Assembly (NCBI GenBank): GCA_021805865.1
Contig: JAJZDX010000007.1
Coordinates: 1-64,000, forward strand
From: Pseudomonadota bacterium
GTDB lineage: Bacteria > Pseudomonadota > Gammaproteobacteria > Steroidobacterales > Steroidobacteraceae
Reading direction: 5' to 3'
Length of the DNA: 64,000 bases
Part shown: one piece after another, positions 44,285 through 62,541 of the stretch
Numbering within the stretch: position 1 is the first letter of the stretch
Layout: the number at the start of each line of letters is the position of its first letter
The notes under the pieces: generated by a model
What the model saw: the letters and a program-made list of their open reading frames with translations, nothing else
Database searches by the model: none
What the model was told of the DNA's origin: nothing
Made by a program: the position numbers and the translations under genes

Positions 44285-44291
44285 ACAAGGG

Positions 44292-46042: not shown

Positions 46043-46115
46043 ACAGCTGAATCCATGCTGAATGTCGCCAACGTAAGACGTTGATTTCAGAGGAGACCCA
46101 AAGTTGTCCTCCACA

Positions 46116-46131
46116 TGGCATGTGCCTTGCA
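46116..46131 (+). promoter_or_regulatory. Sigma-54 promoter with no clear downstream gene
   Basis: TGGCATGTGCCTTGCA fits the -24/-12 consensus with the required ten bases between GG and GC. It would start transcription near 46143, reading toward 46174-46515, where I recognise no intact gene. It could drive a decayed PEP-CTERM gene, a leader or a small RNA. Confidence 0.65.
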
Positions 46132-46173
46132 TCGAGCGGTGTCGTCCGACACGAATCATGGACCTGAAAGACT

Positions 46174-46515
46174 GTGCATCATGACTCGCTCATCGAGATA
46201 CCACGCAGCCTCACCGTGGCTGCCGGCCTGTTGGGGCCTGCTGCGGCCGAAGCCAACACTCCAACGCCGTGCGGGGCAAGACCCGCATGGCACGGGAACC
46301 CGATGCGCCGGCCGTGCTTGCCGCAGTCCTCACCCGGGTGGACCTGGCGATGGCTCGCGTGCAGCGGCGCACGCAAGAGCGACCTGCCTGACTCCCGGAA
46401 CGGCATTCCGAAAGCCACCTTCGAGGAGCACTCTTCTCAATTAGATCCGGATCCGATCGTCGATAATTTTTACACTCCAGGCGATCGTTCGGTTGGTTTT
46501 CACATAACTAGTTGA
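46174..46515 (+). other. Weak open frame, possible relic of an exported protein gene
   Basis: A 113-codon frame runs MHHDSLIEIPRSLTVAAGLL, then GPAAAEANTPTP, which faintly resembles a decayed signal peptide. The remainder is Arg/Pro-rich, as chance frames are in this composition, and there is no PEP-CTERM tail. It lies between an orphan sigma-54 promoter and that of the next PEP-CTERM gene. I treat it as a probable relic, not as a gene. Confidence 0.25.
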
Positions 46516-46536
46516 TATACATGAATTTATTGAATA

Positions 46537-46552
46537 TGGCATTTTTCTTGCT
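46537..46552 (+). promoter_or_regulatory. Sigma-54 promoter of the PEP-CTERM gene at 46595
   Basis: TGGCATTTTTCTTGCT matches the -24/-12 consensus, with GG and GC ten bases apart. Transcription would begin near 46563, leaving an untranslated leader of about 32 bases that contains a GGGAG-type ribosome site. Confidence 0.8.
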
Positions 46553-46594
46553 CAATATTGGTCGTGGAGACCACCATTACCGGGAGTTCACTTA

Positions 46595-47281
46595 ATGAAC
46601 AGGCACATTTCTAAGCTTGGCCTCATCGCCGCGATTGGCGCGATGGCGGCGGGTACCGCGTTCGCCGGCCCCATGCAGATGACCGTGTCCAGTGGAGGGA
46701 ACAGCAGCACGTTTTTCACGACCAATGGAAGCAGCTACACCAACTCGGATCTGAACGGCTGGGACGTCTCCTATTTTGTCCCGGAGAGCAATTCACCCTC
46801 GACCCAGCCATGGGGGCTTGATCTGGGTGGTTTCACGACTGCCTGCATGAACTCGAGCGGTTGCGGCGCCCTCACGGTGTCCATCAGCGCGACCGGCTTC
46901 ACGACTCCTGTGGGGGCGAATGAGTTTGGCACAACGCTCGGCGGAGCGCTGACGGGCTCGGGCAGTGTCATGCAAACGGCCTATTGGGGCGCAAGCAACC
47001 AACTGTGGGATGAGAGCGGCACCATCGGGACGCTCACCAGCTTGGGCTCCACGGTAGGAGGCGGTCCTGCTCCCGCCATGGACATGTCGGCGTACTCGCT
47101 GACACTCGTCGATACGTTCAACGCCACCTGCACCAAGAGCAATTGCGCATCATTCAGCATCGACGGTGACATCACCGGCGTCAGCACCGTCCCGGAGCCC
47201 GGCACCCTGGCGCTCTTCGGGGCCGGACTGCTCGGCTGCGGCCTCTTCGTCTCCCGGCGCCGTCGCGCCCGTCAGAGCTGA
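46595..47281 (+). CDS. PEP-CTERM protein (XrtA substrate)
   Basis: A 228-residue exported protein. The signal peptide is LGLIAAIGAMAAGTAFAG. The mature part is Ser/Thr/Gly/Asn-rich and of beta type, with two possible cysteine pairs (ACMNSSGCG and CTKSNC). The C-terminal sorting signal is VPEPGTLALFGAGLLGCGLF followed by VSRRRRARQS. Such proteins are exported, cut by exosortase, and are thought to be held in the exopolysaccharide matrix. It is preceded by a sigma-54 promoter and followed by a strong terminator, so it is a single-gene unit of the PrsR regulon. Confidence 0.9.
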   Translation: MNRHISKLGLIAAIGAMAAGTAFAGPMQMTVSSGGNSSTFFTTNGSSYTNSDLNGWDVSYFVPESNSPSTQPWGLDLGGFTTACMNSSGCGALTVSISATGFTTPVGANEFGTTLGGALTGSGSVMQTAYWGASNQLWDESGTIGTLTSLGSTVGGGPAPAMDMSAYSLTLVDTFNATCTKSNCASFSIDGDITGVSTVPEPGTLALFGAGLLGCGLFVSRRRRARQS

Positions 47282-47335
47282 GCGCAAGGCAATGTGACAT
47301 CCCGCGAGGACGTGACATGCACGCGGATGTTCCTG

Positions 47336-47366
47336 GAACGGCCCCCTCGAGGGGCCGTTCTCTTTT
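47336..47366 (+). terminator. Intrinsic terminator, copy 1 of a conserved hairpin
   Basis: The stem GAACGGCCCC / GGGGCCGTTC (ten pairs, five-base loop) is followed by TCTTTT. The identical stem recurs after the next two PEP-CTERM genes and at 58783. Confidence 0.85.
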
Positions 47367-47489
47367 AGGACCCTCAGACCAGGCACCCCCTTGCCGGGTG
47401 TACGCTCATCGACGGCGATAGGACGCGTGGCACGGTGCGCTCCCGGGAGAAACGGCGGCGACATCGTGGTCGGGAAGACCGGCACCGAT

Positions 47490-47582
47490 GTCCCGCTGCC
47501 CGCGGCACTGGCGCTCTTCAGTGCGAAGATGCCCGGCTGGACGCTATTCATTGCCTGCCGCCCCGCCGGGTCGGTTGGCGCC
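47490..47582 (+). pseudogene. Possible relic of a VPLPA/PEP-type sorting signal
   Basis: In the 517-base gap between two PEP-CTERM genes, one frame reads VPLPAALALFSAKMPGWTLF. This resembles the motif-plus-helix of the VPLPA or VPEP sorting tails, but no proper exported protein precedes it and the basic tail is degraded. It may be what is left of a duplicated gene. The rest of the gap shows no gene. Confidence 0.35.
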
Positions 47583-47728
47583 GCGCCGAGCGCGAGCGGT
47601 GAGATCGCGCATTGTCGATGGATTTTACGAACAGCCTGATCGTGGCGCCGCACGGATGGATGGCAGCCGGGCCTGCTTTCCCGTAAGCCTTTCATTTTCA
47701 ATGGGTATTCAATGGACCCTCCCTATCA

Positions 47729-47744
47729 CGGCATGTAGCTTGCA
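47729..47744 (+). promoter_or_regulatory. Sigma-54 promoter of the PEP-CTERM gene at 47799
   Basis: CGGCATGTAGCTTGCA fits the -24/-12 consensus, with GG and GC ten bases apart. The start point would be near 47755, about 45 bases before the gene. Confidence 0.75.
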
Positions 47745-47798
47745 TGTAGTGATTTCACGAGGCGTTGCGGAAGGCACGCCATTTTGGAGGTGCGTATC

Positions 47799-48509
47799 GT
47801 GATGCGATCAACCAAAGCGGTTTGTGCAGTTGCGGCCGCGGCCGCCGGCTTGTTCTGGTCTTTCTCGGCCTGCGCCGCTGCGCTGCACGCGTTCTGCTAT
47901 AGCCCGACACCGGCGTGCTCGGATAACGGCAGCGTCACCCCGACCACCGCCTCCTCGCCGAACTTCGGGTTCTGGTCTGCCTCGGGGCCGGCGACCGGGG
48001 ATTTCCTGGTCGATATTCTGGTCCCCAACAACTACACACTGCCCTCCGGCTTCACCGTCACCGGCGGCGGGAACGGCGCGGCAACGGCCTCCGAGTCCGG
48101 CTCGGGGTGGACGGGCGGATTCCTGGATACTTATCTCGGGCTCTCCGCCTCGCCAAGCAATCCCCTGAGCGCCTGGCTTCGCACCACCCAGGGCAATGAT
48201 CCCGGCGCCAGCGGCTATTACGTGTTCCAGGCGAATCTCGGCACCAACACGCTCGCCGGCGCGGCCGGATCCGGACCCGATCTAAATGCCGGCACCCTGC
48301 AGGTGGGCACGGTGGTGGTCGGTTTCCTGGGTCCGCAGACCTGCAAGAAGGAAGAAGCATGCAGCGACTGGATCGGGACCCCCAACAGCGCCGCGCTGTA
48401 CGACGGGACGAGCACCACCGTCCCGGAGCCCGGCACCCTGGCGCTGTTCGCCGCGGGACTGCTCGGCTGCGCGCTGGTGGCTGCCCGCCGCCGCGCTCGA
48501 CAGAGCTGA
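47799..48509 (+). CDS. PEP-CTERM protein (XrtA substrate)
   Basis: About 236 residues. Start is GTG at 47799 or ATG at 47802; a GGAGG lies 8 or 11 bases upstream. The signal peptide is VCAVAAAAAGLFWSFSACAA. The mature part is a beta-rich domain with Cys-containing ends (FCYSPTPACSD, TCKKEEACSDW) and GASGYYVFQANLGTNTLAG. The tail is VPEPGTLALFAAGLLGCALV with AARRRARQS. The promoter-gene-terminator layout is the same as at 46595. No known enzymatic domain. Confidence 0.9.
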   Translation: MMRSTKAVCAVAAAAAGLFWSFSACAAALHAFCYSPTPACSDNGSVTPTTASSPNFGFWSASGPATGDFLVDILVPNNYTLPSGFTVTGGGNGAATASESGSGWTGGFLDTYLGLSASPSNPLSAWLRTTQGNDPGASGYYVFQANLGTNTLAGAAGSGPDLNAGTLQVGTVVVGFLGPQTCKKEEACSDWIGTPNSAALYDGTSTTVPEPGTLALFAAGLLGCALVAARRRARQS

Positions 48510-48546
48510 GCGTCTCCGCCACGTCCTGACACCTTGGCGGTGTCCC

Positions 48547-48579
48547 GAGAACGGCCCCCTTGCGGGGCCGTTCTCTTTA
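48547..48579 (+). terminator. Intrinsic terminator, copy 2 of the conserved hairpin
   Basis: GAGAACGGCCCC and GGGGCCGTTCTC form a 12-pair stem followed by a short T-run (TTTAT). It has the same core stem as at 47336, 49362 and 58783. Confidence 0.85.
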
Positions 48580-48738
48580 TGATGTCAGGATGCCTGCGTC
48601 AGGAGCGCAGGCCCGCGACGCGGCACGTCTGTATTTGACATAAAACTTGTCGGCAAACCTTACATCTGCCGGGAACAGGGTTTACCCAAAGGATGCACCC
48701 GGGGCACAATTGCTTGTCTTGGAGATGATTTTTCTCCG

Positions 48739-48754
48739 TGGCATGGAAGTTGCT
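48739..48754 (+). promoter_or_regulatory. Sigma-54 promoter of the repeat-rich PEP-CTERM gene
   Basis: TGGCATGGAAGTTGCT is a clear -24/-12 element, with GG and GC ten bases apart. It lies 43 bases before the start codon at 48797; transcription would begin near 48766. Confidence 0.8.
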
Positions 48755-48796
48755 TAATTCCCGCCAGCAGCGGAACAACCCCGCATGGAGGTCTAC

Positions 48797-49324
48797 ATGA
48801 GCTCGTTTACCGCATTCGTTCGTCCGTCGGCCCTGGCACGTGCCACCCTGAAGTCTCTTACGCTTGCCGCCGTTGGGGCAATCGCACTGGCTTGCGTGCA
48901 GCCGGCCCACGCGAATCCCTACCCGGGCCACTACAACAACCAGAACAACTCCGGTAATCAGGGTAACGACGGTAACCAGGGAAATTACGGTAACGACGGC
49001 AACCAGGGTAACGACGGCAACCAGGGAAATTACGGTAACTACGGTAATCAGGGCAACGACGGTAACCGGGGAAATTACGGTAACGACGGCAACCAGGGTA
49101 ACGACGGTAACCAGGGAAATTACGGTAACGACGGCAATCAGGGCAACGACGGCAACCAGGGAAATTACGGTAACGACGGCAATCAGGGCAACGACGGCAA
49201 CCAGAACAACTGCGGTGGCAAGGGCAAGTACAACGTCCCCGAGCCGGGCACCCTGGCGCTGTTCGCCGCGGGACTGCTCGGTTGCGGGCTGTTCGCCGCC
49301 CGCCGCCGCGCAAGGCAGCGCTGA
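48797..49324 (+). CDS. Asn/Gly-repeat PEP-CTERM protein
   Basis: About 175 residues from the ATG at 48797; a GGAGG five bases upstream supports it over the ATG at 48785. The signal peptide is LKSLTLAAVGAIALACVQPA, cleaved near HAN. From about residue 48 to 137 the protein is built from five-residue units, GNQGN, GNDGN and GNYGN, about 17 in all, with almost no hydrophobic residue. After a short CGGKGKYN segment comes the sorting tail VPEPGTLALFAAGLLGCGLF with AARRRARQR. It is likely a disordered, hydrated matrix protein. Identity to other PEP-CTERM tails here is high. Confidence 0.88.
   Translation: MSSFTAFVRPSALARATLKSLTLAAVGAIALACVQPAHANPYPGHYNNQNNSGNQGNDGNQGNYGNDGNQGNDGNQGNYGNYGNQGNDGNRGNYGNDGNQGNDGNQGNYGNDGNQGNDGNQGNYGNDGNQGNDGNQNNCGGKGKYNVPEPGTLALFAAGLLGCGLFAARRRARQR
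48955..49204 (+). repeat. Tandem coding repeat (15- and 30-base units)
   Basis: The Asn/Gly units are encoded by near-identical short repeats (ggtaacgacggcaacc, aaattacggtaacgac and variants). They recur every 15 or 30 bases in frame. Unit number may vary between strains by slippage without breaking the frame. Confidence 0.8.
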
Positions 49325-49361
49325 GCGGCTGCGGCAAGTCCGGGACTGCAGGCGTCCCAGA

Positions 49362-49392
49362 GAACGGCCCCCTCGCGGGGCCGTTCTTTTTT
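49362..49392 (+). terminator. Intrinsic terminator, copy 3 of the conserved hairpin
   Basis: The stem GAACGGCCCC / GGGGCCGTTC is followed by TTTTTT. It ends the transcript of the Asn/Gly-repeat gene and lies within direct repeat A. Confidence 0.9.
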
Positions 49393-49438
49393 GAAGCGCC
49401 GCGCAGCGAAACGGGGGCGGGTCCGCTACCGTGAAGGA

Positions 49439-49629
49439 ATGGCGGCAGATCCCCAAAGCCTGGCCGGACCCCAGGGCCCCTTGCGAGCGGCCGCAACCGG
49501 CCGCTCCCTGCGTTCACGGTCGACGGGGAGGATTCTTTTCAGGTCGCGGCATTGGCCTCCGCGCTCTCGCGGGACAGCTGGGCCACGCCTGAGTGCCATG
49601 TGAAGCGCAATACGGAGCGTCTGCCGGCT
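49439..49629 (+). pseudogene. Truncated 5-prime copy of the polysaccharide deacetylase gene
   Basis: The ATG at 49439 corresponds to the start of the intact deacetylase at 58860, and both begin AADPQSLAGPQ. A one-base loss near residue 12 shifts the frame, so the product turns into an Arg/Ser-rich nonsense tail. Similarity ends at about 49629, where unrelated sequence begins. It is clearly non-functional. Confidence 0.8.
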
Positions 49630-50251
49630 TCGCCTGCCCCCTCACGGGGACCTGCGCATGACTCGGGGTCGATGTGGTTCGCCAAACCTGCCTCACCGTG
49701 GACTTCCCGCCTGGCGACATTGATTCTTCGCGGGCGAAACTCGATTGTCGCTGCGTGACTTCCACCACTTGCTCCTCGCCGGTCTCCCGGCGCATCACAA
49801 AGGCTTGGCAAAGCTGCCTCCGACGGCGCTGCGCGCCGAGGGCCCCGGGGTTCGATGCCAATCAAACTACCGGGCCTTCCTCTATCTGCATCTCACACCT
49901 TCAGCGTAGCCGAAATGGATCAGGCCGCATCCCGATGCAGGTGCCGGCACCCCCGGGAATCCCATCGCAGCGTTAGCTCTCTGCCCGGCCTCTCAGGCCG
50001 GGCAGACTGCGCCGCCGTTCTGGCGAGGCGCAGAAAAACGACGTCGATGAGGCGAAATCGGAAGCGGACGGGAGGCAGACCCGAGCGCCGAGACTCACCC
50101 GGTCAAATCAAAACCGCGCCCCAACCCCAGAATCAGCCGGTTGCTGACCACCGTTCACACCAGAAGCGGGTGGCCGAAGGATCGCGACTGTGCCTCGCGG
50201 ACAACTGCTTGCATGCAGGGGTCTCGGCCGCAATCGCGATGGGCATCGCCC
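49630..50251 (-). other. Possible group II intron remnant and non-coding region
   Basis: On the minus strand, a frame at about 49640-49700 reads GLANHIDPESCAGPREGAGE. This resembles the spurious reading frame often seen in the 5-prime RNA domain of bacterial group II introns. No reverse transcriptase follows. From about 49870 to 50251 I find no gene, only an 11-pair palindrome at 49981-50005 without a T-run. Confidence 0.35.
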
Positions 50252-52381
50252 TCAGAAGTTTGCCGTGACTTCCACGCCGTATGTGCGCGGCTCGGCCAGG
50301 GACCCGATGTCGTAGGGCAAGCCGGTGAACTTCGAGGGGTTGTAGTCCTCGTAGTAGCGCTCGTTGCCGAGATTCCTGCCCCAGAGATAGACGCCCCAGG
50401 GGGCAAACTCGACCCCGGCCCGGGCGTCGAGCAGGTTCAGGGGCTTCTGCACCGCGCGATTGTAGACCTGCCAGTACTGCTTGCCATCGTGGGTGAAATC
50501 CACCCGCAGTGTGCCGCGGTAGCCATCGCCCAGCGGCCGATCATACTGGAACCCCACCTTGAGGTCCCAGGGAATCGTCTTCGGCGTGTGATTGCCGTCG
50601 ATTCCCGGGAAGGCGTTGCTCACCGAGGAGCTGTTGACGATGTCCGTGTGGGTCGTGCCGACACCGCCGAACACCTGCAATCCGCCGGTCACGACCGCCT
50701 GGACGCTCAGCTCGAGTCCGCGGATGTGCACGCGGTTAAGATTCTGGATGATCTGCGAGCCGTTGGTCGCATTGACGAAGAAAAACTGGTAGTTGTGATC
50801 GACGTCGTAATAGTAGTCGCCGTTGACGATGAGCCGCCGATCGAGCCAGCTGGTCTTGAAGCCGGCCTCGTAATTGGTGAGCGTCTCGGGGCGGAAATAC
50901 TCGGAGAACGGCGCCGAGATGCCCGGTGAGTTGAAGCCGCCGCCGCGAAAACCCGTCGAATAGGTGAGGTAGCCGAGCGCCCGCCTCGTGAAATGATATG
51001 TCAGGGTCGCCTTGGGCTCCGAATCCGTCTCGGTCTTGCGCGCCACGCCACCGAAGCCCGGATTGGCGAGGTTCGTCTGAGCAAGGGTATTTGAATCGTA
51101 GCGCAGAGCGACGGTGGCCGTGAGGCGATGCGTCAGGTCGTAGTCGGCCTGTCCGTAGAGCGCCCAGGAATGGTTGTGATCGGCCTCGTTGCGGTTGATG
51201 ATCACCGCGGCCGGGTTGTAGAACTGATCCGACCCGGTCGGGATCTCGAAGAACGCCCGGGTGAGGAGCGACTTGGTGGTCTGCTCGTAATAGGCTCCGA
51301 TGAGCCAGCGCAGCCGCTGCGCATTCGGCGAGGCGAGGTGGATCTCCTGGCTTGTGATCGCGGTCGACAGGTTCTGCCCCTGTCCCACCGGCCCGAGGAA
51401 GCCGAACAGACCTCCCGGATTGATCGTCGGGTTGGTGAAGTCCAAAGACCCGCGGTAGTCCTCGAGGAGGTTCGTGTAGCCGGTGACGCCGGTCAGGGTT
51501 GCGAAGCCCAGATTGGCGTCGAACTTGAACGCCAGGTCGCTCACGTGACCGGAGCTGGCGCCGAGATAGTCGCTCTGGGGCGGCTGGATGTCATTCGCAT
51601 TGCCGCTGAACACCACGCTGTCCCAGGTCGCGCCTCCCTTGAAGCCGTTGTAGTCCCCGCGCAGATCGAGAGTCAACCAGCTCGTCGGCAGGGCAAGCAG
51701 CCGTGCCCGGATCGTATCATCGTGATTGACCGCATCGACGTTCCTGCGCAGGTAGGGATTCCTGATGAGCCCGCCGCTGCCGTGCACGTTGCCGTCGATG
51801 CTGAAGAGCAGCCTGTCCCTGATGAGCGGTCCGGAAACGCTCGCCGTCGCGGCGTACGCACGGCCATTGCCGTATTTCAGGTCGAGGTGCGAATGAAACC
51901 GGTTGGTCGGTCCGCGCGTGGTGATGATCATCACGCCGCCGATGGCGTTCTGGCCGTACAGGCCGCCCTGGGGCCCCATGAGCACCTGCACCTGCTTCAC
52001 GTTGAACAGGTCCATCAACAGCTGCTTCTGGCTGTTCTGCGCCACGCCATCGACCACCACCAGCATCGGCGGATCGGCGTTGTTGATCTCCGAGACGCCG
52101 CGGATGGTCACGAAAGAATTGAGGAACGTGAACGAATTCGCCACCGTCACGTTCGGGATGAGATTGAGCGCCTGCTGGGTGTTGCTGACGTCGGCGGCCG
52201 CCAGCTGCCGTCCCGAGAGCGCCGTCATCTGTATGGGCACGGACTGGATGTGCTGGGCGCGTCTTTGCGCGGTGACGATCACCGGCTGCAGCTGCTGGGT
52301 CACAGCGGGCTGCGCGGCGACGGCAATACCGCTCCACGCGGCAAGAACAACGGCCATCAGGCCTGTGGCGGCGCGATTCAT
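50252..52381 (-). CDS. TonB-dependent outer-membrane receptor
   Basis: About 709 residues from the ATG at 52381. The signal peptide is MAVVLAAWSGIAVAAQPA. A TonB-box-like QLQPVIVTAQRRA precedes the plug domain (AADVSNTQQALNLIPNVTVA, FVTIRGVSEINNADPPMLVV, VQVLMGPQGGLYGQNAIGGV). A 22-strand-type barrel follows and ends YGVEVTANF with a C-terminal Phe. It is of the type that takes up unknown small organic molecules. It is the last gene of the minus-strand block with the hydantoinase and DUF917 genes, 70 bases from the latter, so its ligand may be their substrate. Confidence 0.9.
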   Translation of the reverse strand: MNRAATGLMAVVLAAWSGIAVAAQPAVTQQLQPVIVTAQRRAQHIQSVPIQMTALSGRQLAAADVSNTQQALNLIPNVTVANSFTFLNSFVTIRGVSEINNADPPMLVVVDGVAQNSQKQLLMDLFNVKQVQVLMGPQGGLYGQNAIGGVMIITTRGPTNRFHSHLDLKYGNGRAYAATASVSGPLIRDRLLFSIDGNVHGSGGLIRNPYLRRNVDAVNHDDTIRARLLALPTSWLTLDLRGDYNGFKGGATWDSVVFSGNANDIQPPQSDYLGASSGHVSDLAFKFDANLGFATLTGVTGYTNLLEDYRGSLDFTNPTINPGGLFGFLGPVGQGQNLSTAITSQEIHLASPNAQRLRWLIGAYYEQTTKSLLTRAFFEIPTGSDQFYNPAAVIINRNEADHNHSWALYGQADYDLTHRLTATVALRYDSNTLAQTNLANPGFGGVARKTETDSEPKATLTYHFTRRALGYLTYSTGFRGGGFNSPGISAPFSEYFRPETLTNYEAGFKTSWLDRRLIVNGDYYYDVDHNYQFFFVNATNGSQIIQNLNRVHIRGLELSVQAVVTGGLQVFGGVGTTHTDIVNSSSVSNAFPGIDGNHTPKTIPWDLKVGFQYDRPLGDGYRGTLRVDFTHDGKQYWQVYNRAVQKPLNLLDARAGVEFAPWGVYLWGRNLGNERYYEDYNPSKFTGLPYDIGSLAEPRTYGVEVTANF

Positions 52382-52450
52382 GTCTGTCCCCCCGAGTTTC
52401 GTCGTTGTCATGGTCGCAATGGTTCAGCTGTCAGCGGTGGTCGATCGAGG

Positions 52451-53548
52451 TCATGGTGTTGCGGCGAGGATTTCGATGGGCACGAACGGGTGATCGAGCC
52501 TGAAGGCCTGCGGTCCGAACACCGCCAGGGCATCGCTGGTGCGCAGCGCCGGCGGCGCGCTGACCCCGAGCACGCTGACCCGCTGGCCATAGCGCAGGCC
52601 CTCCGTCGTGATCGGTTCGGCGCTCTCCCGATCGACCACGACGATCAGATCGGGGACGATGGCGATCACGCGTCCGTCCCGCTGCGCGCAGAGATTCTCG
52701 TTCTGGAACTGGATCTCGAGGCGCGCACCCCGACCGTCGAGGGCTTCGAGCACACATCGCCCGAGAACCCATCCCCGCGTCGTCTCGCGCTGCACGTCGA
52801 TGATTTTTCCCTCGAAGAGCAGGTGGGCATGACGGTAATAGGGCGTGGTGCGCAGATACGCGAGCAGCGCCGCGACCGGCTCGCCGGCGCTGCGGCCGGC
52901 GCTGATCGCCCGGCCGATGCCATATGCCACCGACAGCGTCGCCGCCACGGCGGTGCGCTTCGCCTCCGCGCCGGTCATTGGATAGCAGGAGAGCATGGCC
53001 GAGGCGCCCATCTGCACCACGAGCGCCCGCCCGATTTCCTCGGCGGCGACCGCCGCGCCCGTCTCGATGATGACACTCTCGCCGTGCTCATTGGCGATCA
53101 CCATCGGCGTGCAGGCGACACCGTAGACGTTGAAGGACACCATCTGGATCGACGGGAAGGCCCGGCCCATCCCATCCGCATCGACAACGGGCAATCCGCG
53201 CAGGGCCGCATAGGCGACCGGCAGCGTCGCGTTGATGCCGCCGCACTCGGCCGCGATGATGACATCCGCGCGGCGACCGAGGAATCGCTCGAGCTTGGAA
53301 ACCGCCAGATGCGCCTCCTCGAGCGAGAACAGCTTCTCCACGAGGACGGTAGGCGCCCCCATGCCCGCGACCGAAAACACGTTGGCATCATCCGCCACGG
53401 CCTCGAGCGCCAGCAGCTGCGGGGCGCCGTACTGCTCGATCGCGTGGGCACAGCACAGGCGGCCGATGTACGGATCACCGCCGCCGCCGGTGCCGAGGAA
53501 AGCCGCCCCGCGCGCAAAGTCCTCGAGCATCGCGGTCTCGATCTTCAT
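52451..53548 (-). CDS. DUF917 / S-methyl-thiohydantoin desulfurase-like protein
   Basis: A 365-residue protein starting at the ATG at 53548 in an ATGA overlap with the hydantoinase stop. It begins MKIETAMLEDFARGAAFLGT with the glycine-rich GTGGGGDPYIG, then VVDADGMGRAFPSIQMVSF and VYGVACTPMVIANEHGESVI. The C-terminal half is VIAIVPDLIVVVDRESAEPI and VSVLGVSAPPALRTSDALAV. This is the DUF917 two-domain protein that is often fused to or next to hydantoinase/oxoprolinase proteins. It probably acts with the upstream gene product on a cyclic amide. The exact reaction is unknown. Confidence 0.85.
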   Translation of the reverse strand: MKIETAMLEDFARGAAFLGTGGGGDPYIGRLCCAHAIEQYGAPQLLALEAVADDANVFSVAGMGAPTVLVEKLFSLEEAHLAVSKLERFLGRRADVIIAAECGGINATLPVAYAALRGLPVVDADGMGRAFPSIQMVSFNVYGVACTPMVIANEHGESVIIETGAAVAAEEIGRALVVQMGASAMLSCYPMTGAEAKRTAVAATLSVAYGIGRAISAGRSAGEPVAALLAYLRTTPYYRHAHLLFEGKIIDVQRETTRGWVLGRCVLEALDGRGARLEIQFQNENLCAQRDGRVIAIVPDLIVVVDRESAEPITTEGLRYGQRVSVLGVSAPPALRTSDALAVFGPQAFRLDHPFVPIEILAATP

Positions 53549-55143
53549 GCGCCCACCTCCCCCGCCGGCGCCCCCTGCGGGCGCGCCAATGCCAGATCGC
53601 CCGTGACCTTGACCCGCAGGCGCACCGCCCCGCCCGGCACGTACGCGATAGGCAATTCCTCCACCTCGACCACTCTCAGGGTATCCGGGACTGCTCCGGC
53701 AGCGAGCGCGGCGCGTCGGGCCTCCTCGGTCGCCGCCGCGATCGCGCCTTCCCGACCGAGCTGCTGGTACGAATACACCCGATCCACCTCGCCGCCCGCC
53801 TGCGCGATCGAGGCGCCGATCGCGTTGGCAACCCCCGCGGCCTGGGGAACGATCACCTCCGAGACTCCGGGAATGGCCCGGTGGATCAACACCGAACCGC
53901 CCCCCACCAACACCAGGGGGATGGCGGCCGCCGAGGTTTTCATGCGGTCCAGGGCCTCGGCGAACAGCCGATGGATCTCGGCGACGCCGGCCTCGACCCG
54001 CGCCGGATCGAGGCCGGCGACCCGCACGGCATCGCCCATCCGGGCATAGCCCGCGGCGACGGCGATGTCGCTCGCCGTCAGCACGTCTCCGCCGAAGACT
54101 CGGGCCTGCTGCGCCAGCCGATAGCCGACCGAGCGCGGACCGACGCGCACTGCGCCCGCATCGGCGTGTACGAGACTGCCGCCGCCGAGCCCGATTGACA
54201 GCAGATCGGGCATGCGAAAGTTGGTGCGTACTCCGCCGATGTTCGCGCTGATCGCCGACTCGCGCGGGAAACCGCCCACCAGCATGCCGATGTCGGTCGT
54301 GGTGCCGCCGATGTCCGCGACCAGCGCATCGCTCAGCCCGGACAGGTACGCCGCCCCCCGCATGGAATTGGTCGGACCCGAGGCGAAGGTCAACACCGGA
54401 TATTGCGCCACCCGCTCGGCGCTCATCAGCGTGCCGTCGTTTTGACTGATGAAGAACGGCGCCTCGATGCCGAGGGCGCGCAGCGCCGCCGCGAACGCCG
54501 CCACGACCTCGCGCGCCATGCCCGCGAGGGAGGCGTTCATGATGGCGGCATTCTCGCGCTCGATGATCCCGATCCGCCCGATCCGGCTCGACAGCGTCAC
54601 GGCGATCTGCGGGGCTTCCTGCGCAATGATCTGCGCCGCGCGCTCCTCCATCTCGGCATTGACGGGCGAGAACAGCCCGCACACCGCGGCGCACTTCAGT
54701 CCCTGGGCCTGCATCTGGCGCGCGGCCTGCGCGACCGCCTGTTCATCGAGCGGGGAATTAATTCGTCCGTCGTAGTGATATCCGCCACGCACGCAGTGCA
54801 CGTTGTGGCCGATCGCCGTGACAAAATCCCGCGGCCAGTCCATCAGCGGCGGTACGCCGCGCGCGGCCGGCAAGGCAATGCGCACCACCCCGACCGACGA
54901 GAGATTGCGCCGCTCGACGAACGCATTGGTGAAATGGGTGGTCCCGATCATCACGGCGGCGATGCTCTCGGGCGAGCGCTCGGCGCCCGCGCCACCGTCC
55001 TCGAGGATGGCGCGGATCGCCCCCACGATGCCGTCGCTGACGTTGGGCGTCGTCGGATGCTTGTGGAATGCGATCAGGCGCCGGCCGTCCATGAGCACGG
55101 CATCCGTGTTCGTTCCGCCGACATCGACGCCGATTCGAAGCAC
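53545..55143 (-). CDS. Hydantoinase/oxoprolinase family protein (HyuA type)
   Basis: About 532 residues from a GTG at 55143; an AGGGGG run lies upstream. The N-terminus is the ATPase-fold opening LRIGVDVGGTNTDAVLMDG. It continues with AVMIGTTHFTNAFVERRNLS, VLTFASGPTNSMRGAAYLSG, and a second phosphate loop LVADIGGTTTDIGMLVGGF. These are the actin-like ATPase motifs of the N-methylhydantoinase A group, which couples ATP hydrolysis to ring opening. Some longer frame upstream of 55143 is not supported. It is co-translated with DUF917. Confidence 0.87.
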   Translation of the reverse strand: MLRIGVDVGGTNTDAVLMDGRRLIAFHKHPTTPNVSDGIVGAIRAILEDGGAGAERSPESIAAVMIGTTHFTNAFVERRNLSSVGVVRIALPAARGVPPLMDWPRDFVTAIGHNVHCVRGGYHYDGRINSPLDEQAVAQAARQMQAQGLKCAAVCGLFSPVNAEMEERAAQIIAQEAPQIAVTLSSRIGRIGIIERENAAIMNASLAGMAREVVAAFAAALRALGIEAPFFISQNDGTLMSAERVAQYPVLTFASGPTNSMRGAAYLSGLSDALVADIGGTTTDIGMLVGGFPRESAISANIGGVRTNFRMPDLLSIGLGGGSLVHADAGAVRVGPRSVGYRLAQQARVFGGDVLTASDIAVAAGYARMGDAVRVAGLDPARVEAGVAEIHRLFAEALDRMKTSAAAIPLVLVGGGSVLIHRAIPGVSEVIVPQAAGVANAIGASIAQAGGEVDRVYSYQQLGREGAIAAATEEARRAALAAGAVPDTLRVVEVEELPIAYVPGGAVRLRVKVTGDLALARPQGAPAGEVGA

Positions 55144-55279
55144 GCCTCGATCCCCCTGCGGGGCTCGTGCCCCTGTGCGCCGGACTTTACCCGGCGCGAA
55201 TGAGGCGCCAAGGGGGAAAAAAGCTAGGAGCAGAGGCAATTCCGGCAGGAGGGTCGGATCGGGCCCGTACGGGGCCACC

Positions 55280-57967
55280 CTACCGATTCCGGGAGGGTGC
55301 CTCCCTCAGCACGCCCAGCTCGCGAGCCCGGACGAGCGCTTCGAGGCGCCCGTGGGAACGGGTCTTGGCATAGATGTTCTTCAGGTGAAAACGCACCGCA
55401 TGCTCGCTCACTCCGAGACGGCGAGCGATGACCTTGTCCTTCAGACCCCGATCGAGCTGCTGGAGAACATCGAGTTCCCTCGGACTGAACACCGGCCTTT
55501 GCCGGACGGCCTCGCCCGTGAGCAGCGCATGCAGATCACACGCCTGCCGGCGCAGCGCTTCCTCGGCAAGCACGCGGCCGGCCTCGGCGAGCAGCGCTGC
55601 GAGCGCCGCCCCCTCGCGCAGCACGGCGCGCAGATAACCCGTGCGCGCGACTTCCGCACACACCTCGCCCATGCGCGCCAGCGCCTCGGCATGCTCCCCC
55701 ATGCCCTCCAGACACATGGCCGCAAGGACGTTCAGGCGCAGCACCATCCGCGCGACTCCGCGGGAGCGTCCGTAAGCGAGCGCCGCCTCGCAGACCCGCA
55801 TGCCCTCCTGGAACCGGCCGTGGCGCGCCATCAGGCGCACCCAGGCCGTGGCGAGGCACTCGACCTCCCGCCAGGAGGCCCCCTCTCCTTCGGCAAGGCC
55901 GGCAGCGGCGAACCGCGTCGGGCTTCTCTCCGCCACACGCAGCGCCCGGTCCGGCTCGCCGGCGAGGGTCAGGGAGGCGACGCGCAGCGCATCGAGCAGC
56001 GGCACCAGTTTCGCAAGGCCGAGACGCTGAGCGTGCGCGTGCGCCTCATCGAGCATGGCGAGCGTCTCCTCGAGCCCCCGATCGAGCAGGTAGACTTCGG
56101 CGCTCGCCCCATAAGCGGCCGCATAGATCTCGAACCAGGCCTCGGCGTCGCGCAGCCGCGTGATCACCTGCGAGAGGCGCCGCTTCGCATTGCCGAGAGC
56201 GTTGCATTCCAGATCCAACTCGGCCATCAGTACATTGCCGATCAGGCCCAGACCCGCGTCGTGCGGGAAATGCCTGCGGCTCTTGCGCCGGCCCCGCTCG
56301 TAACGCTGCAGCGCCTCCTGGGTATCCCCGCGGGCCATCGCGATCGAGCCGGTGTGAAAGTCGATGAAGTTCGCGCCGTAGATCGAGCCGAACGCCAGGC
56401 AGTGCGCGGCGGCTTCCTCGCCGTAGCGCCATGCGGCATCAAACAGCCCGCTCTGCAGATGGGTCACGCACAGCACGGTCTTGTGATGCGCCAGCTCGAC
56501 GTCTTCGGCGGCCGGATCGTGCAGGCCCTGGGCGAGAGAGCCCAGGTGCGCATCGGTGAGCGGCAGGCAGCAGTAGATCACCAGCATGGACAGGATGAAC
56601 AAGCCCTCGCGCCGCAGCGCCGTGGCCCCGGGTTCGGCCGGATCCTGCGAGAAGCCCCGCGTGGCGGTGGCGACCCGGTCGTACTGTGCGCGAGCCTCGT
56701 GCAGGCGCGACTGCTTGATGAGCACGATGGCGCGTATCAGCCCGAGGCGCGGCATCGCGGCAATCATCTCCTCATCGATCAGCCGCTGCGCTGCGATCAC
56801 TTCCTGCATGCCGTGACGGATCCAGATCGACACGCCTCCCGCCTGCAGGATCAACGCGCCGGTGAGCATCTTGTCGCCGGCCGCCTTCGCGTGACGCAAC
56901 GCGGCCAGGAGATCCTGTGCGTCGGCCAGCCATTGCGCCGCGCGCCGGTGGATCCGCGCGCATCGGGCCGGATGCCGCTCGGCCAGCATCGCGAAGTGCT
57001 CGCGCAGCATCGGGTGCAGCCGCAGATGACCGGCGGCCTCTTCCAGGGGCGGCATCAGCGCGGAAAGATATTCGAGAGCGCGCAGGATCTGTGCGGAGTC
57101 GTGCGCCTCGCGCACACGGTCGGCGAGCTCGACGCTCACCGAATCGAGCAGGCTGACGTCGCAGAGGAACTCCCGCTGCGGCTCGGTCAGTCCGCGGACG
57201 AGCTCTTCCGTGAAATACTTCGCCGCCACCGTCTGCGAGAGCGGATTGCGCAGCACGCCGTGCTCCTGCAGCGGCTCCTGCGCCGCGAGCGCGCGCAGAA
57301 TCTGCAACGCCACCGGCCAGCCCTGCGTCTGCTCCCGGACAGCGCCCAGATCGTGGGCCGACACCGCTCCTTGCAGGCAGGCGTTCATTTCCGCCTGCGT
57401 GAAGCGCAGGCTCCCCGCATCGATATGGCTGACCTGCCCGATCAGCGCGAGGTGCGAGAGCGAGAGTCCGGGGTTGGCGCGCGCGGCGAGCGCCACGTGC
57501 AGATTCTCTGCGGCGTACCGGATCAGAGTATCGAGCTGGCCCAGGGCATCTGCGCTCGTGACTCGTTCGAGGTCATCGAGAATGAGGCAGATCTCCTGCC
57601 TGGCGCGCGCGGCGCCATGCAGTACCGCGTGGATCGCGAGCGTGCCGGCCGCCGAGCCGCGCTGGCCGTCCTTCAGCAGCCCGGTCGCAGACATGTCAAC
57701 GCCGGCCTCCTGCAGCGTGAAAGCGAGGTAAGCGGCCAGCCGCTCCCCGCTGTCATCCGCATCGAGCGTCAGCCATGCGACCTGCACGCCCTCTGCAAGC
57801 AGCAGCTCCCGCCACTGCGCCAGGAGCGTCGTCTTACCGAAGCCTGCCGGGGCTTCAAGCAGAGTGACCCGGCGCGAACGGCCCGCCGAGAGACACTCGA
57901 GGAGCCGCGGGCGGCTGAGCAGCACAACGGTTTGTCTCGGCGCCGATATCTTCGTCTTTAGCAACAT
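55280..57967 (-). CDS. MalT-like LuxR-family ATP-dependent transcription activator
   Basis: An 895-residue regulator. Near the N-terminus LLEAPAGFGKTTLLAQWREL holds the Walker A loop (AGFGKTT, 41-47), and ARQEICLILDDLERV is the Walker B part. TPR-like helices fill the middle (about 400-800). The C-terminal LuxR helix-turn-helix is RPVFSPRELDVLQQLDRGLK and RRLGVSEHAVRFHLKNIY. This is the STAND-type architecture of MalT. It lies 136 bases upstream of the hydantoinase gene on the same strand, so it likely activates that gene block, with the uptake substrate or a product as inducer. Confidence 0.92.
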   Translation of the reverse strand: MLLKTKISAPRQTVVLLSRPRLLECLSAGRSRRVTLLEAPAGFGKTTLLAQWRELLLAEGVQVAWLTLDADDSGERLAAYLAFTLQEAGVDMSATGLLKDGQRGSAAGTLAIHAVLHGAARARQEICLILDDLERVTSADALGQLDTLIRYAAENLHVALAARANPGLSLSHLALIGQVSHIDAGSLRFTQAEMNACLQGAVSAHDLGAVREQTQGWPVALQILRALAAQEPLQEHGVLRNPLSQTVAAKYFTEELVRGLTEPQREFLCDVSLLDSVSVELADRVREAHDSAQILRALEYLSALMPPLEEAAGHLRLHPMLREHFAMLAERHPARCARIHRRAAQWLADAQDLLAALRHAKAAGDKMLTGALILQAGGVSIWIRHGMQEVIAAQRLIDEEMIAAMPRLGLIRAIVLIKQSRLHEARAQYDRVATATRGFSQDPAEPGATALRREGLFILSMLVIYCCLPLTDAHLGSLAQGLHDPAAEDVELAHHKTVLCVTHLQSGLFDAAWRYGEEAAAHCLAFGSIYGANFIDFHTGSIAMARGDTQEALQRYERGRRKSRRHFPHDAGLGLIGNVLMAELDLECNALGNAKRRLSQVITRLRDAEAWFEIYAAAYGASAEVYLLDRGLEETLAMLDEAHAHAQRLGLAKLVPLLDALRVASLTLAGEPDRALRVAERSPTRFAAAGLAEGEGASWREVECLATAWVRLMARHGRFQEGMRVCEAALAYGRSRGVARMVLRLNVLAAMCLEGMGEHAEALARMGEVCAEVARTGYLRAVLREGAALAALLAEAGRVLAEEALRRQACDLHALLTGEAVRQRPVFSPRELDVLQQLDRGLKDKVIARRLGVSEHAVRFHLKNIYAKTRSHGRLEALVRARELGVLREAPSRNR

Positions 57968-58191
57968 GGGATTGAACGGACTCCTGCTCGCAGCAGCGAT
58001 CGGCGCGACAAGCCTGTTTTCGTGTTGCCTCAGCTAATTTTGTTACCGCGTTCCTCATCAGCAATGTTACCGAGGAGCGGCTTCCCATCTCTTCCGGATC
58101 GAGCTTCGATGCGCAACGCTTGTGCCTCATCTTGCTGTCCATAGCCCCCACGGTGCGGTGGAGAGTGCATCCTGGCAGGGGCTATCGCCGG

Positions 58192-58596
58192 TCACATCTC
58201 AGCCGAAGCAACGGCCGGGATCGGTACCATTTTTCGCCAGACAATGCGAGGGCCACCGCCGACATCGCGCCGAAACGGCTGTCGTACGATCCGGTGCTCG
58301 CCGCGCCGGGCTCCAAGCCCCTGAAGCTGACTGACCATCGCTTGGTTCACCGCGTTCTGGCAGGATCGGCCGGCACTCAACTCCTGCCCCGGAAACATCG
58401 CCAGTGTCACGGTCGGCGGGTACCTGCGCTCCCGGTACTGCGGCAGCCGTGCTTCCAGGGGCTCGAAAAGCTCAGGACCGGTCAGCAGGTCGAAAAAGCT
58501 CATCGAATCCACTGGCACTTGCCGGGCGAGTCCCTGCAGGTGCTTGCGCAAATGCCGTTGCTGTCGGGCGTTTCTCGGTCTACGCTTGATCGCCAT
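58192..58596 (-). pseudogene. IS4-family transposase, N-terminal fragment
   Basis: The 134-codon frame has the N-terminal domain of one IS4 transposase group: LRKHLQGLARQVPVDSMSFF, DLLTGPELFEPLEARLP and RRYPPTVTLAMFPGQELSA, then SCQNAVNQAMV. Around residue 90 the frame shifts and homology ends. The catalytic domain is absent. It sits at the right border of the 9-kb block, next to direct repeat B. Confidence 0.7.
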
Positions 58597-58722
58597 GAAG
58601 GGTAGCCTCCGGGGCGCAGGGTGGATGTGTCACAACAACATCCTACCACTCTGAGCCAACCTTCTTCTTTACTTTTCAACACCTTGCGCAACCCCGCCTC
58701 GCGCGCTGCGCCTTCCCCGAGT

Positions 58723-59050
58723 GCCGCCGCGCAAGGCAGCGCCGAGCGGCTGCGGCAAGTCCGGGACTGCAGGCGTCCGAGAGAACGGCCCCCTCGCGGG
58801 GCCGTTCTTTTTTGAAGCGCCGCGCAGCGGAACGGGGGCGGATCCGCTACAGTGAAGGAATGGCGGCAGATCCCCAAAGCCTGGCCGGACCCCAGGCCCC
58901 CCTTGCGAGCGGCCGCAACCGGCCGGTCAATGCGTTCACGGTCGACGTGGAGGATTATTTTCACGTCGCGGCGTTGGCCTCCGCGGTCTCGCGGGACAGC
59001 TGGGGCACGCGTGAGTGCCGTGTGGAGCGCAATACGGAGCGTCTGCTGGC
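58723..59050. repeat. Direct repeat copy B (pair with 49302-49629)
   Basis: It carries only the tail codons of a PEP-CTERM gene, with the stop codon region changed, then the same terminator and an intact deacetylase start. It differs from copy A at about 20 positions. The two copies bracket 9.1 kb. Confidence 0.9.
58783..58813 (+). terminator. Intrinsic terminator, copy 4 of the conserved hairpin
   Basis: GAACGGCCCC / GGGGCCGTTC is followed by TTTTTT. No intact gene ends just upstream, so it is a leftover of the duplicated PEP-CTERM gene end. It lies about 50 bases before the deacetylase start, so the deacetylase promoter must lie between them or transcription must read through. Confidence 0.85.
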
Positions 59051-59768
59051 GCTGCTCGCCGGCCAGGAAATCCGGGGAACGTTCTTCGTGCTCGGCTGGG
59101 TGGCCGAGCGCTACCCGGCGCTGGTGCGGCGCATCGCGGACTGCGGCCACGAGGTCGCCTGCCATGGATTCTCCCACCAGCTCATCTACCGGCAGAGCCC
59201 CGAGGAATTCCGCGAGGAGACCGCACGCGCCAAGACGCTCCTCGAGCAGGCGATCGGGGCGCCCGTCCTGGGCTATCGCGCGGCCAGCTTCTCGGTGGTC
59301 CGCTCCACGCTGTGGGCGCTCGATACGCTGATCGACCTGGGGTTCGCCTACGATTCCTCGATCTTCCCCATCCGGCACGACCGCTACGGCATCCCCGATG
59401 CCTCAGCGGACCCGGGACGCGTCGCCGCCCCCTCGGGGCGCACCCTGGTGGAATTCCCCATGGTGCCGGCGCAGTTCATGGGGATGAAGGTCCCCATCTG
59501 TGGAGGCGGGTACTTCCGGATCTTTCCGTACTGGCTGACGAGGGCGGGCCTGAGGCAGATCAATGCCGGTCGGCGGCCGTTCCCGTTCTACCTGCATCCG
59601 TGGGAGATCGATCCCGGCCAGCCCCGCATCCGCGTCGGCGCGGTCTCCCGCTTCCGCCACTACACCAATCTTCATCGCTGCGAGCGGCGCCTCGGCCGCC
59701 TCCTTCAGGAATTTCCCTTCGCCCCGATGCGCGACGTGCTGCACGCACGCGGCCTGCTCAACGCCTAA
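58860..59768 (+). CDS. XrtA-system polysaccharide deacetylase
   Basis: A 302-residue protein with a NodB fold. NAFTVDVEDYFHVAALASA carries the metal-binding Asp pair. GTFFVLGWVAERYPALVRRI and EVACHGFSHQLIYRQSPEEF carry the histidine motif. GYRAASFSVVRSTLWALDTL follows, and the end is FYLHPWEIDPGQPRIRVG. This is the deacetylase type (TIGR03006) of exosortase-A loci, usually near the kinase and amidotransferase; here it is separated from them by the inserted block. It should remove acetyl groups from the polymer. The AAGGA just before the ATG is too close to act as a good ribosome site, so expression may be weak. Confidence 0.9.
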   Translation: MAADPQSLAGPQAPLASGRNRPVNAFTVDVEDYFHVAALASAVSRDSWGTRECRVERNTERLLALLAGQEIRGTFFVLGWVAERYPALVRRIADCGHEVACHGFSHQLIYRQSPEEFREETARAKTLLEQAIGAPVLGYRAASFSVVRSTLWALDTLIDLGFAYDSSIFPIRHDRYGIPDASADPGRVAAPSGRTLVEFPMVPAQFMGMKVPICGGGYFRIFPYWLTRAGLRQINAGRRPFPFYLHPWEIDPGQPRIRVGAVSRFRHYTNLHRCERRLGRLLQEFPFAPMRDVLHARGLLNA

Positions 59769-59839
59769 GGAGACGGCGGTCGCTCTCTGACACGGCCTGG
59801 CCGAGGGTTGCCCGAGGCTGTCGCCGACCGAGCCGCCAT

Positions 59840-60567
59840 GCCAGCGGCCGCGGGGGAGCAGGGCCGCACGCCCGAGAGCTTCCAGGCCATCGAGCCTCTC
59901 TGCTACATCGGCAGCGGTGGCATGGGCGCTCTCGAGTTCGCCCCCGCCCTGGGCCCGGGACCCCGGCACGCCACGAGGCTCCGGGTGGACGCGCTCGTCG
60001 CGCTGGCATCCGAGGTGCTCCGCCACCGCAACGCGCTTCACGGCTCCTTCGACCCGGGCCATCGCGAGGGCGCCCTGCCGGACATCTTGCGCGTCGGCAC
60101 CTCGGCCGGCGGGGCGCGAGCCAAGGCGATCATCGCGTGGAATCCCGAGACGAACGAGGTCCGCTCGGGCCAGGTGACCGCCCCCGAGGGCTTCGGGTAC
60201 TGGCTGTTGAAGTTCGACGGCGTCAGCGGCAACCGCGACAAGGAGCTCGAGGATCCGAAGGGCTACACCGTGATCGAATACGCCTACTCGCTGATGGCCC
60301 GCGACGCCGGCATCGAGATGGCCGAGTGCCGGCTGCTCGAGCAAGGCGGGCGGCAAGCTGCACAGGCAGTCCCTCGCCGCGCTCGCGCACCTCGACTTCA
60401 ATGCCGCAGGCGCGCACTCCTGCGAGCAAGCCCACGAGGTCATCCGGGCGCTGCGGCTCGAGTTTCCCCTGCGCGAGGCGAGGCAAAAGGCACGCCCCCC
60501 CGCAACGCCCGGCCCCGCCTCGGCAGTGAGCTCCTCAGACGGCCGCCCCCGCCTCAACTGCTCTTGA
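59840..60567 (+). pseudogene. HipA-family toxin kinase, internal fragment
   Basis: One frame reads ALEFAPALGPGPRHATRLRV, DILRVGTSAGGARAKAIIAW, FGYWLLKFDGVSGNRDKEL, EYAYSLMARDAGIEMAECRL, then breaks. The +1 frame continues GGKLHRQSLAALAHLDFNAA and ends at 60567. These are conserved HipA segments: the Gly-rich loop with its phosphorylation serine, then part of the kinase core. The N-terminal domain, the segment MTKRFDR-like with catalytic residues, and the C-terminal half are all missing, and no HipB antitoxin is seen. A dead remnant. Confidence 0.75.
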
Positions 60568-61000
60568 AGCCCACGGCGCGGCTGACCGCGTGGCTCAACG
60601 GGCCGAGCGTGTCGGGCTCCCCGCCCGGCCTCGCCGCTCTCGACCAGGTTGCGGACAGCTCGCGCAGGTCAAGCTCCACACAGCGCACACGGTCCTTGAG
60701 GCTCACCATGTCGGACTGCACCCGGTCCACCCCGAAATCGAAATCCGAGAAGCGGCTCTCGATCCGCTCCCGCCGGCTCTCCGCGTGCCGCAGCCGGTTC
60801 TCGATACCGGTCAGGCGGGTCTCGGCGATGGACACGCCCGTCTTGAGCGCGGCAAGGTCCGACTCAACTCCCGTCAACCGGGCCATCAGCGTCGCCAACT
60901 GGACCCTGAGATCGTTGACTCCTGACTCCATGTGCGCCATCCGGGCCTGCTGGCTCTGGCGCCCGGTTTGACCACGGTCTCGATCGGCTTCGATTTGCAT
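60554..61000 (-). CDS. Coiled-coil protein, paralogue of 62542-63072
   Basis: A 148-residue protein from the ATG at 61000, chosen because AGGAGA lies six bases upstream. It is almost all alpha-helical heptads: MESGVNDLRVQLATLMARL, VESDLAALKTGVSIAETRL, IENRLRHAESRRERIESRF, then LKDRVRCVELDLRELS. It has no membrane helix. The block KxRVxxVExDLREL recurs in the protein at 62542, so the two are probably diverged copies. They flank the site-2 protease gene. Function unknown. Confidence 0.65.
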   Translation of the reverse strand: MQIEADRDRGQTGRQSQQARMAHMESGVNDLRVQLATLMARLTGVESDLAALKTGVSIAETRLTGIENRLRHAESRRERIESRFSDFDFGVDRVQSDMVSLKDRVRCVELDLRELSATWSRAARPGGEPDTLGPLSHAVSRAVGFKSS

Positions 61001-61293
61001 GTACGCTCTCCTGGTGACGCCCATCACGATCGACAGCTCAAGGACTGCGGCGGGTCATCGGATCACCTGACCCGGGTCACGAGACGCAGACCCGCTACGA
61101 TCTGAAATCTAGGCAATTCGCATGGATCTGCCAAGGACCGGTTGTAGACTTTTTTCGCGGCTGTTTCAACGCGTCTCCAGCGTGCGTCATCGACGTAAAT
61201 CATGACGTCGCAAATCCGTTGAAAGCCGACACGTCGCTCCTCCCGTCGAGCCAAGTTAGCGTCGCAGATCACAGACTGCTACAATCGCCTTCT

Positions 61294-62496: not shown

Positions 62497-62541
62497 CGCG
62501 GGGCGGAGACCGCCGCGCCCGCACCGATGCGTGAGCGGACG

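Follow-up and report, generated by a model that had tools for sequence, protein, structure and literature searches.

Probable insertion of a 9-kb gene block, with target duplication, between a PEP-CTERM gene and its neighboring deacetylase gene

Introduction

Genomic islands that bring their own integrase and settle at tRNA genes are bracketed by direct repeats, and the repeat restores the gene that was interrupted. Here we describe a block of about 9.1 kb that is bracketed in a similar way and lies between two surface-polymer genes, a PEP-CTERM gene and an XrtA-system polysaccharide deacetylase gene, in a Steroidobacteraceae genome (4.68 Mb, 83 contigs). The window, that is, the whole stretch of DNA analyzed, comprises 64,000 nt (C67:1–64000). 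The repeat that brackets the block measures about 327 bp, and unlike that of an integrase-borne island it comes without a tRNA match or a scanned integrase. No integrase was found among the five larger open reading frames (ORFs) of the block, which were scanned against Pfam, and no tRNA or small-RNA gene that could serve as an attachment site at an edge gave an Rfam match at gathering score within 44000–64000.

Closer parallels are found among accidents of recombination and replication. Single-crossover integration during E. coli conjugation, as described in PMC3240628, also yields an insert flanked by a direct repeat of the target of a few hundred base pairs; the 14 sequenced integrants of that report carried duplications of 109–950 bp, which were explained by one crossover of a molecule that had been trimmed and recircularised. 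Those integrants arose from a laboratory plasmid under one-step selection, whereas the insertion here is natural and older and holds a cargo cluster between decayed copies, and a circle would be hypothetical. In microhomology-mediated break-induced replication (MMBIR) and template switching, joints share 2–5 bp (PMC2621351), as compared with 2 and 3 here, and the combination of a duplication with a piece from elsewhere is alike. The MMBIR model, as set out there, was proposed mainly for human copy-number variation, and the present locus offers two joints only, whose overlaps are possibly chance. Homology-facilitated illegitimate recombination likewise adds DNA with an illegitimate joint (PMC3240628, PMC5361080) and is proposed in PMC5361080 for added modules in Vibrio. 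According to PMC3240628 it generally deletes recipient DNA of a size like that of the insert, whereas at our locus no loss is evident, the target is duplicated and both edges look illegitimate; this process would fit less well.

A duplicated gene junction around the block

The block very probably joined the interval between the two genes after the lineage of this genome had split from that of its relative G054 (G-numbers denote relative genomes), with about 327 bp copied to both sides and each copy later losing the half that was not needed. With P for the PEP-CTERM gene, J for the junction and D for the deacetylase gene, the topology changes from P–J–D to P–J/cargo/J–D. A piece of about 9.1 kb, holding a TonB/DUF917/hydantoinase/LuxR cluster and broken mobile-element sequence at both ends, would have entered the interval, and the 327 bp at the point of entry would have been copied to both of its sides. 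The left copy would complete the PEP-CTERM gene together with its terminator, and the right copy would give the deacetylase gene its upstream region and start. The insertion would have been harmless because the junction was duplicated. That this was a single event is what we infer.

The two copies of the junction, A on the left and B on the right (Table 1), are 93–94% identical over about 327 bp and enclose about 9.1 kb. A repeat search returned the pair as two ungapped families with spacings of 9421 (95%) and 9422 (91%), the step between them being a 1-base gap inside the repeat. The gapped alignment pairs 49302–49638 with 58723–59064 (317/342 = 93%). When the genome was searched with copy A, copy B matched at 94% over positions 1–327 with E = 9.4e-142, and no third full copy of the junction was found in the 4.68 Mb. 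The other two matches (80% over 90 bases and 94% over 31 bases) fall in the tail/terminator regions of two further PEP-CTERM genes of the window (46595–47281 and 47784–48509), which indicates that the tail-terminator unit was already a local repeat beforehand. Among 300 random 328-bp pairs taken at the same spacing, the longest exact word in common never exceeded 14 in the 298 that did not overlap copy A (mean 9.0), and the two overlapping copy A gave words of 45 and 21. A chance origin of the similarity is excluded.

These searches agree with an earlier sequence-only reading of the window, which had reported a 328-bp direct repeat around a 9-kb block; the one correction is that homology between the copies ends at 49628, not 49629, the left copy entering group II intron sequence from 49627. 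The same reading had assigned an intact PEP-CTERM end and a dead deacetylase start to copy A, and the reverse to copy B, which the alignment and the Pfam and NCBIfam matches bear out. Of the PEP-CTERM gene, no more than the final 23 bases survive in copy B, with the stop codon gone, and the terminator hairpin reads intact in both copies.

The empty site in relatives

The state before the insertion can be read from relatives. The congeneric set consisted of 58 genomes, the present one included, and copy A as a query found matches in 16 of them. Two full copies of the junction occur only in our genome. G054 has one (query 1–327, 74%), which runs unbroken into the deacetylase gene (8501–9536 of L053, 86%), and the genes that follow match too (89–92%). 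On the left the junction of G054 continues a PEP-CTERM tail; tail, terminator and deacetylase are thus present in one piece without the block.

We further fetched a chosen set of 16 deacetylase loci from 15 genomes in stretches of 6–19 kb each. The set does not take in four genomes of the same order, the contig-end pieces of G008 and G015 or the second copies of G006 and G023, and one of its two G019 loci is a deacetylase piece only, at a contig end. In 12 of the 16 loci (11 genomes) a PEP-CTERM tail precedes the inferred start of the deacetylase gene by 69–136 bp; in G001 the distance is 208 bp. None of the fetched stretches contains a cargo gene. Since tail and deacetylase are neighbors in relatives, their adjacency is ancestral among the closer relatives, and among the genomes examined the block stands at this place only in our genome. 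It had been predicted from the sequence that some relatives would have the PEP-CTERM gene, terminator and deacetylase gene side by side, with a single copy of the repeat and no block. The outcome is as predicted, with G054 as the full-length case.

Polarized decay of the two copies

In a FastTree tree of the junction, A and B are sisters (support 1.000), joined next by G054 (0.998), with G050 and G013 as outgroups. Within the lineage of our genome, G054 excluded, a single target copy gave rise to both; together with the single-copy sites of relatives, this substantiates the proposal that the PEP-CTERM gene and the deacetylase gene were once adjacent. The branch to A (0.066) is longer than that to B (0.008). 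In the comparison with G054, 15 sites have changed in A alone and 3 in B alone, the relative stands apart from both copies at 70 sites, and at 1 site no two of the three sequences agree; for 15 versus 3 derived sites a two-sided sign test gives about 0.008. Twelve of the 15 changes specific to A lie in the coding part, and the ten that are backed by all outgroups are all nonsynonymous. Positions 49476 and 49504 of the coding part, at which A differs from both B and G054, are not counted among the ten, as G013 or G050 shares the base of A.

Copy A has also suffered a 1-base deletion, which splits the deacetylase reading frame into two pieces, and its TACAGT box has become TACCGT. In copy B the PEP-CTERM stop codon is now a sense codon (58743). 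Copy B has changed in its deacetylase part as well, with a derived, nonsynonymous change at 59005 and a possibly derived one at 58973. The complementary decay noticed from the sequence alone is therefore upheld by changes polarized against G054. As the deacetylase start region survives in B and has decayed in A, the pair gives a natural hint at the bases that matter there.

An assembly artifact, in which two places had been wrongly joined at the repeat, might be suspected in a genome of 83 contigs. The copies differ by 6–7%, however, with 18 sites polarized by G054, and hence cannot be a single sequence that was collapsed or doubled; each joint also passes into sequence that has no other long copy in the genome. 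We consider such an artifact extremely improbable.

A very rough age can be given. Synonymous divergence (dS) between our genome and G054 is 0.21–0.35 for five genes that do not belong to the block (histidine kinase, HemN-like, MATE, LacI and deacetylase; a CBS-protease row was left out, its G054 reading frame being off, with a premature stop) and 0.25–0.39 for the four cargo genes. Half of these values corresponds to roughly 0.10–0.20 neutral change per lineage since the split. By comparison with the branch of 0.066 leading to A, the insertion would date very roughly to between one third and two thirds of the time since the split from G054, a figure that rests on a short fragment whose rates may differ.

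Joints, mobile-element relics and the route of entry

The sequence-only reading had placed mobile-element relics at both inner edges of the block. Both are present and the joints lie inside them, but no intact element end remains at either, and plain transposition is unsupported. On the left, the DNA of 49627–49705 and 49757–49794 matches introns of four relatives, and part of it matches a fifth. The Rfam model RF02005 reaches 38.7 bits (E 3.1e-8), below the gathering score of 49, over a span (49562–49706) that runs into copy A. Because the homologs in the loci of five relatives score 165–188 bits, we count the left element, though only as a truncated relic. The intron's own 5′ end falls near 49794. 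Since the fragment breaks off within the intron, the left joint is not an intron end.

On the right, the transposase remnant (58192–58596), which has no Pfam or NCBIfam match of its own, shares 78% DNA identity with an insertion sequence (IS) relic in G058. The IS4-family end reads GAGTGCC at the joint and is followed directly by the PEP-CTERM tail, whereas the IS copies of relatives (G058, G180 and G068 aligned, and both ends in G152) continue with ATT after GAGTGCC. The outermost 3–4 bases of the IS were thus lost. In G152 the IS appears to be intact: it encodes a DDE transposase of 451 aa, CAATGGCACT stands at each of its ends, and the duplication measures about 10 bp as read by eye.

Two further sequences were seen at the inner edges. 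The ~350-bp repeat on the left (49807–50160; L143, L144, L145, L146 and L092) is dispersed in the genus and includes a 27-nt near-palindrome; in contig C73 of our genome, sequences that match either end of it flank small ORFs at a distance of about 1 kb from each other. On the right, a sequence of about 52 bp (58020–58072) recurs in G052, G060, G076, G077, G171 and G200 and is possibly the end of another mobile element.

Transposition of the cargo by the IS4-family element, one-ended or composite, would make the repeat a target-site duplication, and the right edge of the block does lie within 3–4 nt of an IS4-family end. Against this, the outermost bases of the relatives' copies are missing, the duplication is 327 bp rather than the ~10 bp of G152, no IS end was recognized at the left edge, intact terminal inverted repeats are not found at both edges, the transposase is only a fragment, and the cargo-bearing G054 has no match to the IS relic. 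Transposition of the IS4 family is mostly refuted and is, in our opinion, very unlikely.

Judged by their sequence, neither joint looks like the normal product of intron or IS movement. The joints share 2 nt and 3 nt, overlaps that can be chance, with the IS end short by 3–4 nt and the intron cut internally. The best reading is an illegitimate insertion, end-joined or by template switch, with duplication of the target. Departure would have been from a site inside the deacetylase gene, at 2 shared nt; the cargo piece would have been copied or captured; and re-entry would have followed 327 bp upstream, at 3 shared nt. The joining step could accordingly have been one replicative template switch, or the fill-in of a staggered break that captured a fragment. 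This is the simplest course, as it takes the fewest steps and needs no pre-linked molecule, and we favor it tentatively, at a little under even chances.

A circle carrying the cargo and a trimmed junction copy could instead have entered by a single RecA-dependent crossover of the Campbell type, leaving the repeat of about 327 bp. The product would be topologically identical, and there is precedent in E. coli conjugation, where 56 of the 60 unusual integrants reported gave a duplication PCR product (PMC3240628). This route requires a prior molecule that linked cargo and junction, however, and no such link is seen in the genomes examined; we regard it as possible but doubtful.

Several points weigh against the insertion with target duplication. 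At a per-base match of 0.28, a random joint shares at least 2 nt with a probability of about 0.19 and at least 3 nt with about 0.07. Three of the 16 relative loci lack a convincing PEP-CTERM tail near the deacetylase gene: G045 and G068 have no PEP-CTERM motif within 1.2 kb of it, and the sole regex match in G016, at 970 bp, runs through a stop. The relatives compared at the junction belong to other species, so that the empty site is known from these only, the nearest being G054 with about 86–92% DNA identity in the right flank. The flanks of the cargo differ in G054 and G017, and repeated mobility is possible.

A stepwise origin is another candidate: a larger tandem duplication of the PEP-CTERM and deacetylase genes would have come first, elements and cargo would have settled between its copies, and the inner ends would have been shortened by deletions. 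The locus is duplication-prone, which fits such a course; the three PEP-CTERM genes of the window share tails and terminators, and G054, G050 and G013 carry four or five PEP-CTERM tails. It requires several events, however, a larger duplication is seen in none of the 16 relative loci, and no further piece of a neighbor is left in the block: a search of the block for PEP-CTERM gene or deacetylase pieces gave nothing beyond a chance-level best match (E 0.066). We consider the stepwise origin unlikely.

The cargo genes

Pfam matches confirm the gene content read from the sequence before, a LuxR regulator, a hydantoinase, a DUF917 protein (the family is now S-Me-THD) and a TonB receptor. A role in nutrient use is probable, and the families together suggest that a hydantoin- or thiohydantoin-like compound is taken up and broken down.

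Among the matches listed, close homologs of the LuxR regulator are found in four of the 58 congeneric genomes, namely our own, G054 (89%), G017 (83%) and G057 (82%); LuxR matches as such occur in 55 of 58, those beyond the close four being remote members of the LuxR family, at most about 45% identical. In G054 the four cargo genes are collinear over 7.77 kb at 89.3%. G057 has all four, the TonB gene reaching the contig end, and the G017 contig breaks off just within the hydantoinase gene. No second LuxR gene was found in our genome (the next own match, among the matches listed, has 29% identity), nor a second TonB–DUF917 part, for which there were only matches of 51 and 78 bases. The cargo does not look recently foreign, being present in the genus and showing core-like divergence from G054. 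Given this core-like dS, the common ancestor of our genome and G054 would have had the cluster or received it at about that time. The claim of the sequence-only reading that the block entered with duplication of the junction is thus supported by the empty site as regards entry and duplication, and is refined in that a recent foreign origin of the block seems unlikely.

The cluster of G054 (L087:5757–13524, contig C3) lies between a LacI regulator and a MATE transporter, and that of G017 near a GH3 glycosidase and an arabinofuranosidase-like gene. A survey of the LacI–MATE site covered 20 loci, 13 of them with both genes; the other seven gave no MATE match, several being contig ends. An AGE-type epimerase stands between LacI and MATE in 10 of the 13, our genome included. 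Of the remaining three, only G054 has the cargo there, and G013 and G005 have neither AGE nor cargo. As AGE occupies this position in most loci, the place of the cargo in G054 is itself an insertion. We rejected our own LacI–MATE locus (C5) as an emptied donor site, since it reads LacI–AGE–MATE, the ancestral layout. Our AGE protein is only 42–55% identical to the others, and replacement of AGE by another copy is possible. No credible AGE remnant was detected beside the G054 cargo (tblastn, best E 0.089). A second case of duplication-buffered insertion was looked for there and was not found, the only direct repeats bracketing that cargo being matches of 22 and 30 nt.

The event is ordinary in kind and unusually legible, the fossil of a known DNA accident and not a new system. 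We found no description of this insertion in the literature, in which no search specific to it was made; as far as we have seen, it is new and clear as an individual case. It offers a readable natural example of a large block entering an interval of little over 100 bp between two genes with neither harmed, which we attribute to target duplication followed by complementary loss. One may speculate, as a distinctly unlikely extension, that duplication-buffered insertion is a recurrent, integrase-free route by which the metabolic clusters of the genus enter tight gene junctions. If so, a target copy of a few hundred base pairs made on entry would keep the neighbors intact, and the insertion would be reversible by homologous recombination until the copies decay. 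The same mobility would then also account for the cargo of G054 between LacI and MATE, a place at which no flanking duplication was detected.

Neighboring genes and sequence features

The features discussed are collected in Table 1.

Table 1. Features of the block and its flanks, in window coordinates
Feature	Position	Strand	Details
Last PEP-CTERM gene of a three-gene array, left neighbor of the block	48785..49324	+	PF07589, PF01391; collagen-like Gly repeats; intact PEP-CTERM tail
Copy A of the junction	49302..49628	+	PEP-CTERM tail, terminator, mutated deacetylase upstream region, dead deacetylase start
Intrinsic terminator, copy A	49362..49392	+	GC hairpin and T run, read from the sequence; stem kept in relatives
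Putative deacetylase −10 box, copy A	49427..49432	+	TACCGT; TACAGT in copy B, G054, G050 and G013
Dead deacetylase start in copy A	49439..49628	+	1-base deletion near 49475; ten clear nonsynonymous changes; cut at codon ~63
Left joint	49627..49628		2-nt overlap (GC), deacetylase/group II intron sequence
Group II intron relic, 5′ part	49627..49794	-	~110 nt of intron sequence and a ~56-nt stretch absent from relatives' introns
~350-bp repeat	49807..50160		Also in G058, G059 and G054 (one long and one partial place), in part in C73 of the same genome
TonB-dependent receptor (cargo)	50252..52411	-	PF00593, PF07715; 89% to G054
DUF917/S-Me-THD family protein (cargo)	52451..53548	-	PF06032, PF20906; 90% to G054
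Hydantoinase/oxoprolinase family protein (cargo)	53545..55278	-	PF05378, PF01968; 89% to G054; ORF limits, start may be further in
MalT-like LuxR-family regulator, 895 aa (cargo)	55280..57967	-	PF00196, PF17874; 89% to G054, 82–83% to G017 and G057
IS4-family transposase, N-terminal remnant	58192..58596	-	tblastn to plasmid genes annotated as IS4 family transposase, 46%, 5e-17
End region of IS4-family element	58597..58725	-	Without the outermost 3–4 nt
Right joint	58723..58725		3-nt overlap (GCC), IS end/PEP-CTERM tail
Copy B of the junction	58723..59050	+	PEP-CTERM tail remnant (stop codon lost at 58743), terminator, deacetylase upstream region and start
Intrinsic terminator, copy B	58783..58813	+	Read from the sequence
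Intact XrtA-system polysaccharide deacetylase, right neighbor of the block	58860..59768	+	TIGR03006, 383 bits (cut-off 276)

Weak matches to the sX11 sRNA overlap the terminators and were set aside. The TACAGT box (region 58848–58862 and relatives) stands 6 nt (our genome and G054) or 8 nt (G050 and G013) before the deacetylase ATG, a position that would give a leaderless or nearly leaderless deacetylase transcript.

The collagen-like Gly repeat of the last PEP-CTERM gene (PF01391) has a 9-nt period and extends over 48902–49261, with 25 overlapping copies in register. Each of the three PEP-CTERM genes is preceded by a sigma-54-like site on the plus strand; the sites start at 46537, 47729 and 48739, or 58, 55 and 46 bp ahead of the respective gene. 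They have 1, 2 and 1 mismatches of 11 to the consensus, and four other such matches occur elsewhere in the 40–64 kb region. In Aquincola, a PEP-CTERM gene is reported to be under RpoN control (PMC9850573).

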